Source: a virus. Taken from it: a stretch of DNA of 64,000 nt. The stretch covers positions 1 through 64,000 of IMG/VR virus record IMGVR_UViG_3300025120_009955; one strand, given 5' to 3'. The position numbers and the translations under genes are program-made. The notes below the pieces were generated by a model. It saw nothing but the letters and a program-made list of their open reading frames with translations. It had not been told where the DNA came from and ran no database searches. Below are positions 2,978 through 59,774 of this stretch, in pieces (position 1 is the stretch's first letter; each line of letters begins with the position of its first letter).

Positions 2978-3007
2978 AAGGCACATATTAAGGCACACAA
3001 AGGCACA
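2978..3007 (+). repeat. Three short direct repeats AAGGCACA
   Basis: Copies start at 2978, 2990 and 3000 (periods 12 and 10), in the leader of the 85-residue gene. They could be a protein or RNA binding array or simple slippage. Confidence 0.6.
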
Positions 3008-3039
3008 ATAAAGCATCGCTCCACTTTTAGGAAAGCGAG

Positions 3040-3297
3040 ATGGCCAAGCCAAACGAAATTGAAAAACAAAACTTAGAAGCTCACGTCGAGCTTTGTGCTA
3101 TAAGGTACTCTCACTTGGAAAGCAAACTAGAAAATTTAGAACATAGAATGGATAAACTTGAAACACATCTAGTGGATATCAAGGGACATCTCTCAAAGAA
3201 AGTTGCTGGAACAGATGCTAAAATCTGGAAAGTCGTCCTCACACTGTTAAGTATAGCATTAGCAGGCATCATGGGTTTTCTTTATCACTCCATATAG
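3040..3297 (+). CDS. Small coiled-coil protein with C-terminal membrane anchor (XhlA-like)
   Basis: An 85-residue protein. Residues about 5-55 form a charged coiled coil (HLESKLENLEHRMDKLETHL), and residues about 62-82 form one transmembrane helix (VVLTLLSIALAGIMGFLYH). This layout resembles the haemolysin XhlA / phage holin-associated family, but similarity in layout is all I can claim. It could work in lysis or at the membrane during assembly. Confidence 0.55.
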   Translation: MAKPNEIEKQNLEAHVELCAIRYSHLESKLENLEHRMDKLETHLVDIKGHLSKKVAGTDAKIWKVVLTLLSIALAGIMGFLYHSI

Positions 3298-3303
3298 AAG
3301 TCG

Positions 3304-3311
3304 TATAAATA
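3304..3311 (+). promoter_or_regulatory. T4-type late promoter, leaderless arrangement
   Basis: An exact TATAAATA box only five bases before the ATG at 3317, where the start of transcription would be expected. Confidence 0.65.
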
Positions 3312-3316
3312 GTTGT

Positions 3317-3526
3317 ATGAAGATCATTGAACTAAAAAATAAAATATTAACTCCCATTACTAATGAAGAAAGTGCTCTGCTAAAACGATTTATCGGTAAT
3401 ACTCCTGTTCCAAAAAGTCATCTAGGCCTAAGAGAACAAGAATTAGCATACAAGCTGACTATTAAGGATGCACTAGTTCGAACAAACACTGATGGCAAAA
3501 TCTATTACACAAAAATCATCGACTGA
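3317..3526 (+). CDS. Unknown small phage protein
   Basis: A 69-residue basic protein (MKIIELKNKILTPITNEESA) with no recognisable domain. The ATG lies five bases after a TATAAATA box and lacks a Shine-Dalgarno, so translation is probably leaderless. It overlaps the next gene by 35 bases in another frame, suggesting translational coupling. Confidence 0.55.
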   Translation: MKIIELKNKILTPITNEESALLKRFIGNTPVPKSHLGLREQELAYKLTIKDALVRTNTDGKIYYTKIID

Positions 3527-3986
3527 ACAATTCGATATTGAAAAAATCAAAAGGTTTACTCAAGAAGAATTAAAAAATCTGGCTCAAGTACCTAGTGAAC
3601 TTCCTTTCTGTTATCAAATTGGCAAGGATCTTTTGGTAGGAAACTATCGCATTAATTATATAAACAACGACTGTTGGCGTGTTATGCACGTAGATAGTCA
3701 GCTATTTGATTTTTTTAATCGTAAAGACGCAATATACTATTGCGTAGCATTACATAAAGATCAACACAGCCTGGCAAAAGATATTCGAGACTGTGATGCC
3801 TTACTAAATAAATTAGAGTTCGAAGCACAATTGTATCGTATTCGTTATAAGAAGGCTAAGAAAGCTCAAGATAGTTGGGGACAGGAATTTGCTACAACCA
3901 AGTATAAAGATATTATGTTACGTATAGATCTAGCCAGAGAAGAAATTAAAAAAAATATAGATATTGCTAAATATATAAAAGTTTAA
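3492..3986 (+). CDS. Unknown phage protein
   Basis: A 164-residue soluble protein, acidic in the middle and Lys-rich in a helical C-terminal half (RIRYKKAKKAQ...). No known motif. The start lies inside the previous gene with GATGG just before the ATG region. The overlap makes both genes one transcription unit from the late promoter at 3304. Confidence 0.5.
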   Translation: MAKSITQKSSTEQFDIEKIKRFTQEELKNLAQVPSELPFCYQIGKDLLVGNYRINYINNDCWRVMHVDSQLFDFFNRKDAIYYCVALHKDQHSLAKDIRDCDALLNKLEFEAQLYRIRYKKAKKAQDSWGQEFATTKYKDIMLRIDLAREEIKKNIDIAKYIKV

Positions 3987-4012
3987 AAGTATCTAAAAAT
4001 TAGGAAATAACA

Positions 4013-4690
4013 ATGAAACTACAAGAAATGTCTACTAAAACAGCAAAAAAGTTGAACAAACTAATGGAAAGCCGTTTTGGTTTCACTATTAATTACGATA
4101 ATCTAGATGTAACTAAAGCTACTAAGCTAAATGAAAAGATTACAGCCAATCTAGACAACATCCGCCATAGCGTTGATTTGCATACAGCAGAAAAGAATCC
4201 ACGTTATATGGAATTACTTACAGTGCAAGAAGGACTTTCGACCTGGTTAAAAGAAAATAGTGAAACTGAAGTTATCACTGAAGGCGAAGTTGGTAGTGCT
4301 GAAGTATTACTAGCCGCTAAGAGTATGGTAGATGAAGTTCAGGATATGATTGAAACAGCAGGTAAAATGCAAAACGAGCAACTACCACAATTACTAGATA
4401 GTATCCGTGATCAACTTGGTAGTGAACAAGCTGATGCTTTCCAACAGTCAGTTGGCGGAACATTAGAACAATTAATGCCAGCACTACAAACAGCTAGAGA
4501 TGGTGTCGATGGTGGTGTCAGAGTACTATCCGGTGAGCAAGTTGATACTCCAATGGATATGCCAACTCCAGATAGTGATCTTGATCTTGAAGTTGATGAT
4601 GTCGAAACAGTTACTCCGGACGCAGATGGCTTTGATGCTACTGGTGCCGCAGTAGGTGGTGATACAGAACTTGGTCGCGAATTAAGATAA
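4013..4690 (+). CDS. Acidic helical phage protein, possibly head/scaffold-associated
   Basis: A 225-residue protein. The first 150 residues are helical, with Gln/Glu-rich stretches. The tail from about residue 180 is strongly acidic (repeated D with V, T and E) and ends in GRELR. Such helical-plus-acidic proteins are common as phage scaffold or core proteins, but the family is not recognised and this role is a guess from composition. TAGGAAATAACA is the ribosome-binding region. The next gene starts two bases after its stop. Confidence 0.5.
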   Translation: MKLQEMSTKTAKKLNKLMESRFGFTINYDNLDVTKATKLNEKITANLDNIRHSVDLHTAEKNPRYMELLTVQEGLSTWLKENSETEVITEGEVGSAEVLLAAKSMVDEVQDMIETAGKMQNEQLPQLLDSIRDQLGSEQADAFQQSVGGTLEQLMPALQTARDGVDGGVRVLSGEQVDTPMDMPTPDSDLDLEVDDVETVTPDADGFDATGAAVGGDTELGRELR

Positions 4691-4692
4691 TC

Positions 4693-5067
4693 GTGCGAGT
4701 TGATGAATTTGCTAACAGTAGTTCAAATCCAGAAGATAACTTAGTAACAGCTCTGGAACTTATTCGTAATCGCTACAAAGATGATGAAACACTTCCAAAA
4801 ATTTCTACACAGAGTATAATCAAGCTAGTACTAAACACAGATCGTACTTTTGATTATGATGCTCTAGTATCAGCAAACGAAAACAATCCAGCAGTAAAAA
4901 CCCTAATTAAAAGTTTTAACAAAGACTATGTTGAATTACACCCTGCAGGCAATGATGGTGAAAACGACTCAACAACAACTAACACCGATGGTAAAACTGG
5001 AACAGCAAACACTGTAAACAAGATGGCCAAACGTGCCGCTAAAAAAAGAAGTAAATCTACTTTTTAA
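4693..5067 (+). CDS. Unknown phage protein, GTG start
   Basis: A 124-residue protein. The start is GTG (encoding MRVDEFANSSSN), immediately after the previous stop, so it is probably coupled. The N-terminal 85 residues are compact and helical. The C-terminal 40 residues are disordered (D/N/T-rich), ending in a basic stretch KMAKRAAKKRSK that could bind nucleic acid. The family is not recognised. Confidence 0.5.
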   Translation: MRVDEFANSSSNPEDNLVTALELIRNRYKDDETLPKISTQSIIKLVLNTDRTFDYDALVSANENNPAVKTLIKSFNKDYVELHPAGNDGENDSTTTNTDGKTGTANTVNKMAKRAAKKRSKSTF

Positions 5068-33811: not shown

Positions 33812-33840
33812 TTGACTCTATTAATAAAATCCCATATAAT
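33812..33840 (+). promoter_or_regulatory. Sigma70-type promoter of xoxF
   Basis: TTGACT, 17-base spacer, TATAAT. Predicted start near 33847, leaving a leader of about 140 bases. The bases around -10 (CATATAATTAA) are identical to those of pqqA at 41752. Confidence 0.85.
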
Positions 33841-33846
33841 TAATAT

Positions 33847-33988
33847 TACAATTTTGTAACACTCTTGTTACATCTTGTATAAATAAAAGTGTAGCAGTTC
33901 TAACTGTTATATTTAGAGTGGACGCGGTTTCCAATATTCATGAAACAACCGGCACGTTTAATCAACTTTTCTCTAAAGGAAAAAATCA
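33847..33988 (+). promoter_or_regulatory. Structured xoxF leader, candidate cis-regulatory RNA
   Basis: In order: hairpin TGTAACA/TGTTACA (33855-33872); CAGTT/AACTG hairpin near 33895-33906; TGGA/TCCA hairpin (33919-33933) whose loop CGGTT (33925-33929) can pair with AACCG (33947-33951) as a pseudoknot; then AAAGGA ribosome-binding site. The first hairpin and the TGGAC...CCAAT...CCGRCA order also occur in the pqqA leader. Confidence 0.55.
33878..33885 (+). promoter_or_regulatory. T4-type late promoter inside the xoxF leader
   Basis: An exact TATAAATA box. It would start a late transcript that lacks the first hairpin, giving xoxF both early/middle and late expression. Confidence 0.55.
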
Positions 33989-35863
33989 ATGCAATTAAAT
34001 AAAATTAAACTAGCTCTTGGTTTTATCACTGTAGCGACCCTAGCTTCATCAGGTGCGTTTGCGGCGGCAGATCAAGAGAAAGCAATGGCAAATGCTAACA
34101 ACTGGGCACACCCTAGAGGTCAGCACGATAACCAGGCTTATTCTAAGTTGACTCAAATCAACAAAGGTAATATTAAAAATCTTAAAGCGGCTTGGACATT
34201 AAGTACAGGCGTAAATAGAGGACACGAAGGTGCCCCTCTAGTTATTGGTAATATGCTATATGTACATACAGCATTTCCAAATAACGTATATGCTTTAGAT
34301 TTAAACAACAACCAAAAAGTTGTATGGTCTTACTTCCCTAAACAAGATCCTAGCGTTCAAGCAGTTCTATGTTGCGATAACGTTAACCGTGGTCTTGGTT
34401 TTGGTAACGGTAAAATCTTCTTACAACAAAACGATGGTATGTTAGTAGCATTAGATGCAAAAACAGGTGCTAAAGTTTGGGACGTAAGTAATACAGATCC
34501 TAAAGTTGGTGCTACAAATACTAACGCTCCTCACGTAATTAAAGACAAAGTTCTTACTGGTTGTTCTGGTGCAGAATTTGGTGTTCGTTGCTTTATAGCG
34601 GCATATAACATTGAAGACGGTTCTTTAGCTTGGAAAGCTATGAGTACAGGTCCTGACGAAGAAGTATTAATTGGTAAAGATTTCAACAAAGAAAATCCAC
34701 TTTATTCAGCTCTATCAGTTTACGAAGATGTAAACGGTGGTAACGTTGAAGGCGGTTCTTTCAAAAGAATTCCAACTGATCAACTTGAAGCTCCAGTAGC
34801 AGACCTAGGTCTTAAGACTTGGTTGAAACCACAAGCTGTTAAAGATGGTTGGCAACACGGTGGTGGTTCTGTATGGGGTTGGTGGCCATATGATGCTAAG
34901 ACTAACTTAGTATACTACGGTACAGGTAATCCTTCAGTATGGAATCCAGATGTACGTCCAGGTGACAACAAATGGTCTATGACAGTGTTCGCACGTGATC
35001 TAGATACAGGTATGGCACGTTGGGGTATGCAAATGACACCACACGATGAATGGGATTATGACGGTATTAACGAAGTTATCCTATTTGACAAAGGTGGAAA
35101 AACATACGCTTGGCACCATGACAGAAACGGTTTTGCATACACTTGGGTAGCTAGTAACGGTACTTTAGTTTCAGCTGAAAAAGTGCATCCATTCGTTAAC
35201 TGGTCAACTGGTATTGATCTTAAAACTGGTGTGCCACAAAAAGAAGCGGCACATTCAACACACCAAGATTACAACACTAAAGGCACTTGTCCTGCGGCAC
35301 TTGGTACTAAAGACCAACAGCCTGCGGCATATTCACCTAAGACAGGTTTAATATACTCACCACTTAACCACGTATGTATGACATACGAACCAGTTGAGTC
35401 TAAGTATGTTGCTGGTCAACCTTGGGTTGGTGCTACTTTAACTATGTTTGCTGGTCCTGATGGCGTAATGGGTGGCTTTGCCGCTTATGATCCAATGACT
35501 AACAAAAAAGTATGGTACAACAAAGAGAAATTCTCAGCTTGGGGCGGTGCATTAACAACAGCTTCAGACTTAGTTTTCTATGGTACTTTAGATCGTTGGT
35601 TTAAAGCGTTAGATGCAAAATCAGGTAAAGAACTTTGGAAATTCCAAGTTGGTTCTGGCGTGATTGGTAATGCGTTTACGTACTCACACAAAGGCAAACA
35701 GCACGTTGGCGTACTATCAGGTATTGGTGGTTGGGCTGGTGTTGCTATGAACCTTGGTCTAACAAATGACACAGATGCACTTGGTGCGGCTGGTGGTTAT
35801 AAAGAGTTAACAAAGTATAATGCGGCTCCAGGTGGCGGTGCATTAACAGTGTTCTCACTATAA
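33989..35863 (+). CDS. xoxF: Lanthanide-type methanol dehydrogenase XoxF
   Basis: A 624-residue periplasmic PQQ-dependent alcohol dehydrogenase that oxidises methanol to formaldehyde (and on to formate in many XoxF). Signal peptide residues 1-26. The vicinal disulfide C128-C129 that packs on PQQ is present. Metal ligands E196 (GCSGAEFG), N314 (GTGNPSVWNPD) and catalytic D356 in PHDEWDYDG are present. D358, two residues on, is the extra Asp that marks lanthanide-using XoxF; calcium-type MxaF has Ala. It is full-length for the family (about 600). No xoxG cytochrome or xoxJ is in the window, so the electron acceptor must come from the host. Its codon choice (many GGT, GCT, AAC) looks richer in high-expression codons than in neighbours. 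Confidence 0.97.
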   Translation: MQLNKIKLALGFITVATLASSGAFAAADQEKAMANANNWAHPRGQHDNQAYSKLTQINKGNIKNLKAAWTLSTGVNRGHEGAPLVIGNMLYVHTAFPNNVYALDLNNNQKVVWSYFPKQDPSVQAVLCCDNVNRGLGFGNGKIFLQQNDGMLVALDAKTGAKVWDVSNTDPKVGATNTNAPHVIKDKVLTGCSGAEFGVRCFIAAYNIEDGSLAWKAMSTGPDEEVLIGKDFNKENPLYSALSVYEDVNGGNVEGGSFKRIPTDQLEAPVADLGLKTWLKPQAVKDGWQHGGGSVWGWWPYDAKTNLVYYGTGNPSVWNPDVRPGDNKWSMTVFARDLDTGMARWGMQMTPHDEWDYDGINEVILFDKGGKTYAWHHDRNGFAYTWVASNGTLVSAEKVHPFVNWSTGIDLKTGVPQKEAAHSTHQDYNTKGTCPAALGTKDQQPAAYSPKTGLIYSPLNHVCMTYEPVESKYVAGQPWVGATLTMFAGPDGVMGGFAAYDPMTNKKVWYNKEKFSAWGGALTTASDLVFYGTLDRWFKALDAKSGKELWKFQVGSGVIGNAFTYSHKGKQHVGVLSGIGGWAGVAMNLGLTNDTDALGAAGGYKELTKYNAAPGGGALTVFSL

Positions 35864-39651: not shown

Positions 39652-39697
39652 TAATATTGTATAATGGTAGTCATTGAGTACTAAATATTAATGTACT

Positions 39698-39743
39698 CGT
39701 TCATCCCATCAGGGACGGAAGTAGGCATAAGCTGAAGGAACGC
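39698..39743 (+). promoter_or_regulatory. Glutamine riboswitch (glnA / downstream-peptide class)
   Basis: CGTTC (39698-39702) pairs with GAACG (39738-39742) as P1. Between them are CATCCCATCAGGGACGGAAG (shown in part), then TAGG, and GAAGGAACGC closes. These are the conserved blocks of the glutamine aptamer. It lies just before a 63-residue gene, as in the downstream-peptide class of cyanobacteria and marine phages. Confidence 0.85.
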
Positions 39744-39759
39744 TTCTTTTTAAAAGGAG
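39743..39759 (+). promoter_or_regulatory. Shine-Dalgarno-sequestering hairpin (expression platform)
   Basis: CTTCTT (39743-39748) pairs with AAGGAG (39754-39759) around loop TTTAA, hiding the ribosome-binding site of the next gene. It abuts P1, so glutamine binding could switch translation. Confidence 0.6.
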
Positions 39760-39765
39760 ATAGCT

Positions 39766-39957
39766 ATGTATACTGAAGAATATACATCCACCATATTAGA
39801 AATTGCAACACTATTAGATCTCGAAGTTAAAGAAGTAACTAACTTCCTTGAGCTAATGCTAGATGGTTACGGTTTTACTGATGCTCTTCACGGAACGCAT
39901 TTAACCAGAGATGACTGTGAACTAGTGTTAGCAGAACTTAAGAAAAGAAAAAAATAA
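39766..39957 (+). CDS. Riboswitch-controlled small protein
   Basis: A 63-residue acidic helical protein (MYTEEYTSTILEIATLLDLE, ending ELKKRKK), with no membrane segment. It lies right after a glutamine aptamer. In cyanobacteria downstream-peptide aptamers control small inhibitors of glutamine synthetase (IF17-like), so a role in host nitrogen control is an attractive guess. The sequence does not match those basic inhibitors by eye, so this remains inference. Confidence 0.65.
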   Translation: MYTEEYTSTILEIATLLDLEVKEVTNFLELMLDGYGFTDALHGTHLTRDDCELVLAELKKRKK

Positions 39958-41712: not shown

Positions 41713-41753
41713 AAACTAATGGTTTTCAGTATGCTTTTTATATAAAAGTATCA

Positions 41754-41759
41754 TATAAT
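41754..41759 (+). promoter_or_regulatory. -10 element of pqqA promoter
   Basis: TATAAT in CATATAATTAA, identical over 11 bases to the xoxF -10 region. No good -35 hexamer is present. TGCTT at 41732 resembles a T4 MotA box but stands slightly far away. Confidence 0.55.
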
Positions 41760-41765
41760 TAACAT

Positions 41766-41886
41766 AAGTAATAACAGTAACACGTTGTTACTCAAAGAAG
41801 CGAATCATCAAATTGGACCTGTGGTAACACTCTCCAATGATTTGGCTAGCCGACATATTATTAATTTTTTAAAAAGGAATACTATT
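41766..41886 (+). promoter_or_regulatory. Structured pqqA leader, candidate cis-regulatory RNA
   Basis: A hairpin AGTAACA/TGTTACT (41776-41792) is followed by a second hairpin: CAAA/TTTG, TTGGA/TCCAA and GTG/CAC closed by a GTAA tetraloop (41809-41844). CCGACA follows at 41850 and AAAAAGGAA is the ribosome-binding site. The order and spacing parallel the xoxF leader. Confidence 0.6.
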
Positions 41887-41958
41887 ATGTGGACTACACC
41901 TCAAGCAACTGAAATGCGTTTCGGTTTTGAAGTAACTATGTACGTAATGAACAAGTAA
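41887..41958 (+). CDS. pqqA: PQQ precursor peptide PqqA
   Basis: A 23-residue peptide, full-length for the family, containing FGFEVTMYVMNK. E15 and Y19 in the E-V-T-M-Y motif are the two residues that PqqE links to build pyrroloquinoline quinone. The N-terminal MWTTPQATEMR also matches PqqA peptides of methylotrophs. It is an independent transcription unit with its own promoter, structured leader and terminator. No pqqB, C, D or E is in the window, so it would feed the host pathway that makes the XoxF cofactor. It is too short to be found by length-based gene calling. Confidence 0.95.
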   Translation: MWTTPQATEMRFGFEVTMYVMNK

Positions 41959-59265: not shown

Positions 59266-59441
59266 GATATATAAATTGCTTTACAAAAAGCCCTACAACT
59301 AAACAGATAGTGAAACATTCACCTGGACTAGTCGCAGGAATTGCACTAATATTAATAATGAACCCATACCTAGCAATTGCAGGTATAGCATTAATTGTCG
59401 GTGAATTTGTAGGAATTGCAGACGAATTAGAATTGTTGTAA
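59262..59441 (+). CDS. Small membrane protein ending at the tmRNA gene
   Basis: A 59-residue protein. Hydrophobic segments SPGLVAGIALILIMN and YLAIAGIALIVGEFVGIA form one or two membrane helices. The start at 59262 overlaps the previous stop. Its own stop lies two bases before the first stem of the tmRNA acceptor piece, so the RNA is co-transcribed with it. Confidence 0.55.
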   Translation: MRYINCFTKSPTTKQIVKHSPGLVAGIALILIMNPYLAIAGIALIVGEFVGIADELELL

Positions 59442-59442
59442 T

Positions 59443-59774
59443 CCCTTCGAAGTGAAGGCGTTGCGGACAGGGGTTCGATTCCCCTCATCTCCACCAAAGT
59501 GTTTTTGAAACAGAGTATTTTAGGGGGATGACCAGGTTTCGACGTGGCGAGATAGCAGAGACGGCAACACGGTAGGCGATGACCGTAAATCAAGCAAAAC
59601 TTATAGATGCAGAAAAAACATCTAAATTCGAAACTGTAAAAGTAAGTATGGGCAAAGGCTTCCGCTTTGGCTCTGCTGACCGTGCAGTTGCGTTAGCGTA
59701 AAAACTAACATCGACGGGGTAGTTATACCTTGTTACCAAAAATAGCAGAAGCCCACTTCGGTGGGTTTCTTTTT
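59443..59774 (+). ncRNA. ssrA: Circularly permuted two-piece tmRNA
   Basis: The acceptor piece comes first: hairpin CCTTC/GAAGG (59444-59458), GTTGC (59460-59464), T arm AGGGGTTCGATTCCCCT, acceptor CATCTCC and ACCA ending at 59496. A 27-base intervening piece follows, then the coding piece from 59524: GGGGATG pairs with CATCTCC as a 7-bp acceptor stem (one G-U), then ACCAGGTTTCGACG, the tmRNA hallmark. GCAAC (59564-59568) pairs with GTTGC. A pseudoknot-like ACGGT...ACCGT leads to TATAGAT and resume codon GCA at 59609. The frame then runs 30 codons to TAA at 59699, starting AEKTSKFETV and ending SADRAVALA. The order 3' piece before 5' piece is the permuted type of alphaproteobacteria and SAR11, and I recall it from OM43/SAR11 myophages. 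Confidence 0.92.

Follow-up and report, generated by a model that had tools for sequence, protein, structure and literature searches.

The leaders of xoxF and pqqA in the window (the whole stretch of 64,000 nt analysed here, from a 72-kb virus record) each carry a conserved, covarying RNA element, R1 before xoxF and R2 before pqqA. We consider these to be, with fair probability, two unrelated cis-regulatory RNAs through which a factor would set translation in a phage of OM43-type Methylophilaceae. The initial annotation had foreseen a dedicated structured leader before each gene and had suggested a covariance-model search with the two leaders; relatives were found for both, with conserved stems and compensatory changes in each. 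It had also proposed one promoter-plus-leader module common to the two genes, which did not hold, as R1 matches the xoxF leader only and R2 the pqqA leader only.

Virus, gene content and leader features

The window probably represents a T4-like phage. An OM43-type methylotroph is likely as its host, since the encoded XoxF reaches 95% identity with proteins of Methylophilaceae. No close xoxF was found in isolate phage records, where the sole matches were weak (25% identity). The virus record also carries curli genes, a CHASE2 cyclase gene with relatives in phages Melnitz and HTVC008M, a glutamine riboswitch (aptamer at 39696-39746, just before a 63-aa gene without known family at 39766-39957) and a phage-encoded two-piece tmRNA of the permuted, betaproteobacterial type (window 59387-59695). 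Directly after xoxF lies a gene for a formate dehydrogenase alpha subunit (TIGR01591; 35943-38783), a further methanol-oxidation step on the phage.

Table 1. Features of the xoxF and pqqA loci in the window.
Feature	Position	Strand	Basis
Sigma70-type xoxF promoter: TTGACT 33812-33817, 17 bp, TATAAT 33835-33840	33812-33840	+	Read in sequence; -10 alone not above chance
Putative host-type xoxF operator: TGTAAC/TGTTAC/TGTAAT repeats 11 bp apart, spanning hairpin 33856-33871	33845-33883	-	Host-trained matrix
T4-late-type promoter word TATAAATA	33878-33885	+	Exact word
Hairpin P0 (GTAGCAGT TCTA ACTGTTAT), 5' start of would-be late transcript	33891-33910	+	Minimum free energy fold
R1, divergent copy: P1 GUG/CAC, P2, bulged AA, P3 UUUC/GAAA	33915-33957	+	R1 covariance model
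CTCTAAAGGA, complement of 33912-33918 (TTTAGAG), up to ribosome-binding site; possible alternative pairing	33971-33980	+	7 bp
xoxF, lanthanide-type PQQ methanol dehydrogenase with DYD motif	33989-35863	+	TIGR03075, E 1.6e-182
Host-like pqqA promoter box TAATGGTTTTCAGTATG (host TTAATGATTTTACTTAG..)	41717-41733	+	Host and phage promoters side by side, by eye
pqqA -10 TATAAT	41754-41759	+	
5' hairpin GTAACACGTTGTTAC of pqqA transcript	41777-41791	+	Only GTAACAC-hairpin match besides that of xoxF
R2: P1 AUUGGA/UCCAAU (41812-41817/41833-41838), P2 GUG-GUAA-CAC; third helix decayed	41807-41879	+	Covariance model
pqqA, 23 aa	41887-41958	+	TIGR02107, E 8.3e-10; PF08042

The xoxF promoter region and R1

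Host xoxF promoters of the Methylophilaceae contain three TGTAAC-like repeats at 11-bp spacing. A matrix trained on hosts only (43 host xoxF promoter sites) scored 15.2 at its best window site, on the minus strand at the xoxF promoter, against 1.2 for the best site elsewhere, and its best match also fell at the xoxF promoter in the relatives L003 and L006. The window thus has, as host promoters do, three repeats 11 bp apart; unlike theirs, its set occupies the opposite strand and follows the -10. Because the host-trained matrix has its best window site there, the GTAACAC hairpin that had been described before xoxF is probably at least partly a DNA site, a host-type operator; its letters do recur in the pqqA leader, and it is the xoxF copy that is better read in this way. 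The late promoter word recurs at a similar distance in other phage leaders (L004 has it unchanged; L003, L218 and L250 each differ at one base). In the window, a late transcript from it would start at hairpin P0 and run into R1. A hairpin just 5' of R1 is likewise present in other phage leaders. As a separate observation, the xoxF leaders of host Methylophilaceae (L125-L162) share a different, strongly conserved end, AACCCTTAGTA..ACTWTGGAGAT, and CTGG..TCCTAGTACCAGT is common to a second group of xoxF paralogues; either could be a further leader RNA.

R1 is a small bulged RNA hairpin close before the start codon, with the consensus GUGG-N-CCGCGG / hairpin / CAACCGGCAY, in which P1 (GUG/CAY), a GN bulge, P2 (CCG[C]G/CCGG) and an AA bulge lead to a variable P3 hairpin. 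The R1 model matched the window at 33915-33957 with 22.1 bits (E 0.0044 in 64 kb), the only match with E below 1. The xoxF leader of the window is accordingly a member, albeit a divergent one: a conserved C is missing, and the score is 22 bits, compared with 38-53 for copies elsewhere. No other record with this C-less form was found, and its shortened form GTGGNCGCGG, used as a pattern, brought up no new leader: of the 75 stretches returned, nearly all were rich in G+C or seemed to lie in coding sequence. Pairing in R1 is well kept: 90.8% of cells pair across 15 sequences (at most 40% when the alignment is slid) and 97.3% across 29 matches (at most 43% when slid). Two-sided changes number 12 among the 29 matches, where shuffles give 3.6; most core pairs are invariant, and the covariation comes from P3 and from the end of P1, where G-C is replaced by A-U.

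A pattern scan of viral contigs yielded 69 R1-like stretches, about 46 of them A+T-rich leaders before xoxF, pqqA or a secreted-protein gene; the other 23 are G+C-rich and were read as chance matches. Methylophages have R1 upstream of xoxF, whereas marine phages with alkB have it upstream of pqqA and curli phages upstream of the secreted-protein gene. R1 occurs once in each phage record, where it precedes just one accessory gene. Nine secreted-gene loci were retrieved through their protein, and all carried R1, including six that had played no part in model building. The secreted gene is large (L474-L482 at ~3001-4998) and the last third of its product looks strand-rich; no family or solved relative was found for the protein, and its predicted structure, with a pLDDT of 29, is too poor to be informative. 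Marine T4-like phages have a gene (L224:3003-4067) that resembles alkane monooxygenases and belongs to the fatty-acid desaturase family; in one subset it is followed by pqqA with R1; R1 comes after alkB only where pqqA is next.

R1 was sought in 585 bacterial genomes; the covariance model scored few candidates, and the search was repeated by exact pattern, which gave no match in 187 Methylophilaceae genomes and two in 398 Pseudomonadota genomes, at control level. The element of the window xoxF leader is thus absent from these Methylophilaceae hosts, and so far R1 appears to be a phage-only RNA. It was not seen in the stretches of Melnitz and HTVC008M examined.

The pqqA leader, R2 and the letters common to both leaders

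An R2 model made from host and phage sequences, with the window excluded, ranked the window pqqA leader first in the window (26.5 bits, E 0.0016). This leader, placed before pqqA, has both a P1 of the form UUGRA/UYCAA and P2, and it aligns with host and phage pqqA leaders over the TTGGACC..TCCAA stem. Host leaders have the layout CTCAAG-[TTGGA]CC-hairpin-[TCCAA]YGATYTGG-helix-AAGGAG; the third helix, UUUAUGUU/AACAUAAA, beside the ribosome-binding site, is kept in hosts and other phages and broken in the window copy. P1 occurs among hosts and phages as TTGGA/TCCAA, TTGAA/TTCAA, TCGGA/TCCGA, GTGGA/TCCAC and TTAGA/TCTAA. Of 187 Methylophilaceae genomes, 24 had a match, as did related phages; 23 of the 24 were strong, sequenced OM43 strains being among these, and every one of the 23 has pqqA downstream. 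Over 28 matches 94.9% of cells are paired, with two-sided changes in 13 of 20 pairs (57 cells against 11 in shuffles). The R2 of the phage would seem to be copied from the host.

The GTAACAC hairpin at the 5' end of the pqqA transcript was not among the listed best matches of the operator matrix. At the same place the leaders of other phages have different but self-complementary hairpins, and for this reason the pqqA hairpin looks more like an RNA hairpin than an operator.

The words that had suggested a module common to xoxF and pqqA are all present in both leaders, identical in letters and order. CATATAATTAA lies at 33833-33843 (xoxF) and 41752-41762 (pqqA); as a signal the shared -10 is not above chance (8 sites with at most one mismatch, 5.4 expected). 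The hairpins GTAACACTCTTGTTAC (33856-33871) and GTAACACGTTGTTAC are the only two matches to GTAACAC-N1-4-TTGTTAC in the 72-kb record, for which such an exact pair is unusual; in viral contigs the bare pattern has many scattered matches among those listed. TGGAC..CCAAT..CCGRCA does occur in this order in the two leaders only, and R1 does stand before pqqA in marine phages, so that a single module sensing one signal had some appeal. Against it, TGGAC and CCAAT are absent from the xoxF leaders of the relatives L003, L004 and L006, which instead have GUGGUCCGCGG..CAACCGGCAC in common; CCAAT falls in the variable loop of R1 before xoxF and in the conserved R2 stem before pqqA; and it is with the pqqA leaders of hosts and phages that the window pqqA leader aligns. 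Even when run unfiltered and to an E of 10, the R1 model had no match at 41750-41890, and a decayed R1 before pqqA was dropped as a candidate. A common module is thus already contradicted and very improbable, and the shared word order is best taken as a coincidence of two RNAs.

Proposed mechanism, rival readings and known relatives

Under the reading we prefer, two separate RNAs, xoxF would be read from a sigma70 promoter bearing the host xoxF operator and probably again from the late promoter, whose mRNA would have a 5' hairpin and then R1 close to the ribosome-binding site. The pqqA gene would retain its host promoter box and the host-type leader R2, ending beside the ribosome-binding site. 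Each RNA would fold around that site, where a bound factor may set translation; R1 and R2 most likely act at this level, controlling the amount of protein. Candidates for the trans factor are a protein and a metabolite, PQQ for example. For R1, found only in phages, a protein is favoured on that account, at about even chances, with a metabolite clearly less probable and mere mRNA protection less probable again. For R2, its strict link to pqqA favours cofactor feedback, and PQQ or a PQQ-linked signal is a good candidate, if somewhat short of an even bet. A point against this explanation is that the models themselves served to fit alignments A6 and A7.

Pairing of the ribosome-binding site differs among the classes of R1 leader. 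It is clear before pqqA, exceeding shuffles (0.84 vs 0.56), long-range and weak before xoxF, and lacking in most secreted-gene leaders. Most xoxF leaders allow a different pairing, between CUUGUG, whose GUG is also part of P1, and the CACAAG immediately upstream of the ribosome-binding site; the UUUAGAG of the window can pair with CUCUAAA, over 7 bp reached in 0.08 of shuffles and not significant alone. This alternative pairing is suggestive of a switch, yet not significant leader by leader.

Other readings account for part of these observations. The GTAACA elements could be purely DNA operators for a host regulator, with the rest of the xoxF leader an ordinary untranslated region; the best window match of the host xoxF matrix lies there, as it does in L003 and L006, but this leaves unexplained both R2 and an R1 that lies 30-80 nt downstream and shows compensatory changes in phages without the operator, and we hold it to be distinctly unlikely. 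R1 could instead stabilise the 5' end of phage mRNAs or enhance their translation while sensing nothing, as its restriction to phages, its varied downstream genes and its place near the start codon would allow; its occurrence once per phage record, ahead of just one accessory gene, and invariant bulged bases too specific for such a need, make this the lesser prospect, with perhaps one chance in several. That R1 and R2 are both riboswitches for PQQ or lanthanides would fit xoxF and pqqA as downstream genes and the confinement of R2 to pqqA; R1, however, was not found in bacteria and also precedes secreted genes in (partial) phage records where no pqqA was found, and we doubt this reading. We give similarly little credence to a variant in which R2 would be a PQQ-sensing riboswitch of OM43-type methylotrophs taken over by phages and R1 a separate phage-born sensor in the same cofactor pathway. 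We know of no PQQ riboswitch.

OM43-type methylotrophs have few protein regulators, and to our knowledge the control of PQQ supply and of the lanthanide methanol dehydrogenase in them is not settled. For such control in these abundant ocean bacteria, R2 offers a short, testable candidate. R1 would be an RNA confined to phages and gating host-derived metabolic genes, and its movement between xoxF, pqqA and a secreted gene gives a handle on how phages time such genes.

In a scan against Rfam 15 no family covered the R1 or R2 regions at the gathering cut-off, manA, wcaG and glutamine included, and at relaxed E nothing came near the cut-off for either. Both appear new to Rfam and to the open literature searched, a comparison to which a 2017 survey of 224 candidate RNAs is external. 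The same gene pair, methanol dehydrogenase and pqqA, has been reported earlier on phages, in the Lake Baikal methylophage populations VP_139 and VP_266 (PMC7678222); unlike the window, these are presented without a leader RNA in the parts of that report available to us. As a kind, cis-acting leader RNAs are already known. The glutamine riboswitch (RF01739) of the OM43 phage Melnitz (PMC9004378) is likewise a leader RNA in a phage of the same host group; it differs from R1 and R2 in RNA, gene and position, and its family is known in bacteria. The nearest phage precedents are manA and wcaG of T4-like cyanophages, the former reported from gamma-proteobacteria as well (PMC2864571): R1 and R2 differ from them in sequence and fold, and resemble them as structured leaders of varied host-derived metabolic genes in marine T4-like phages.
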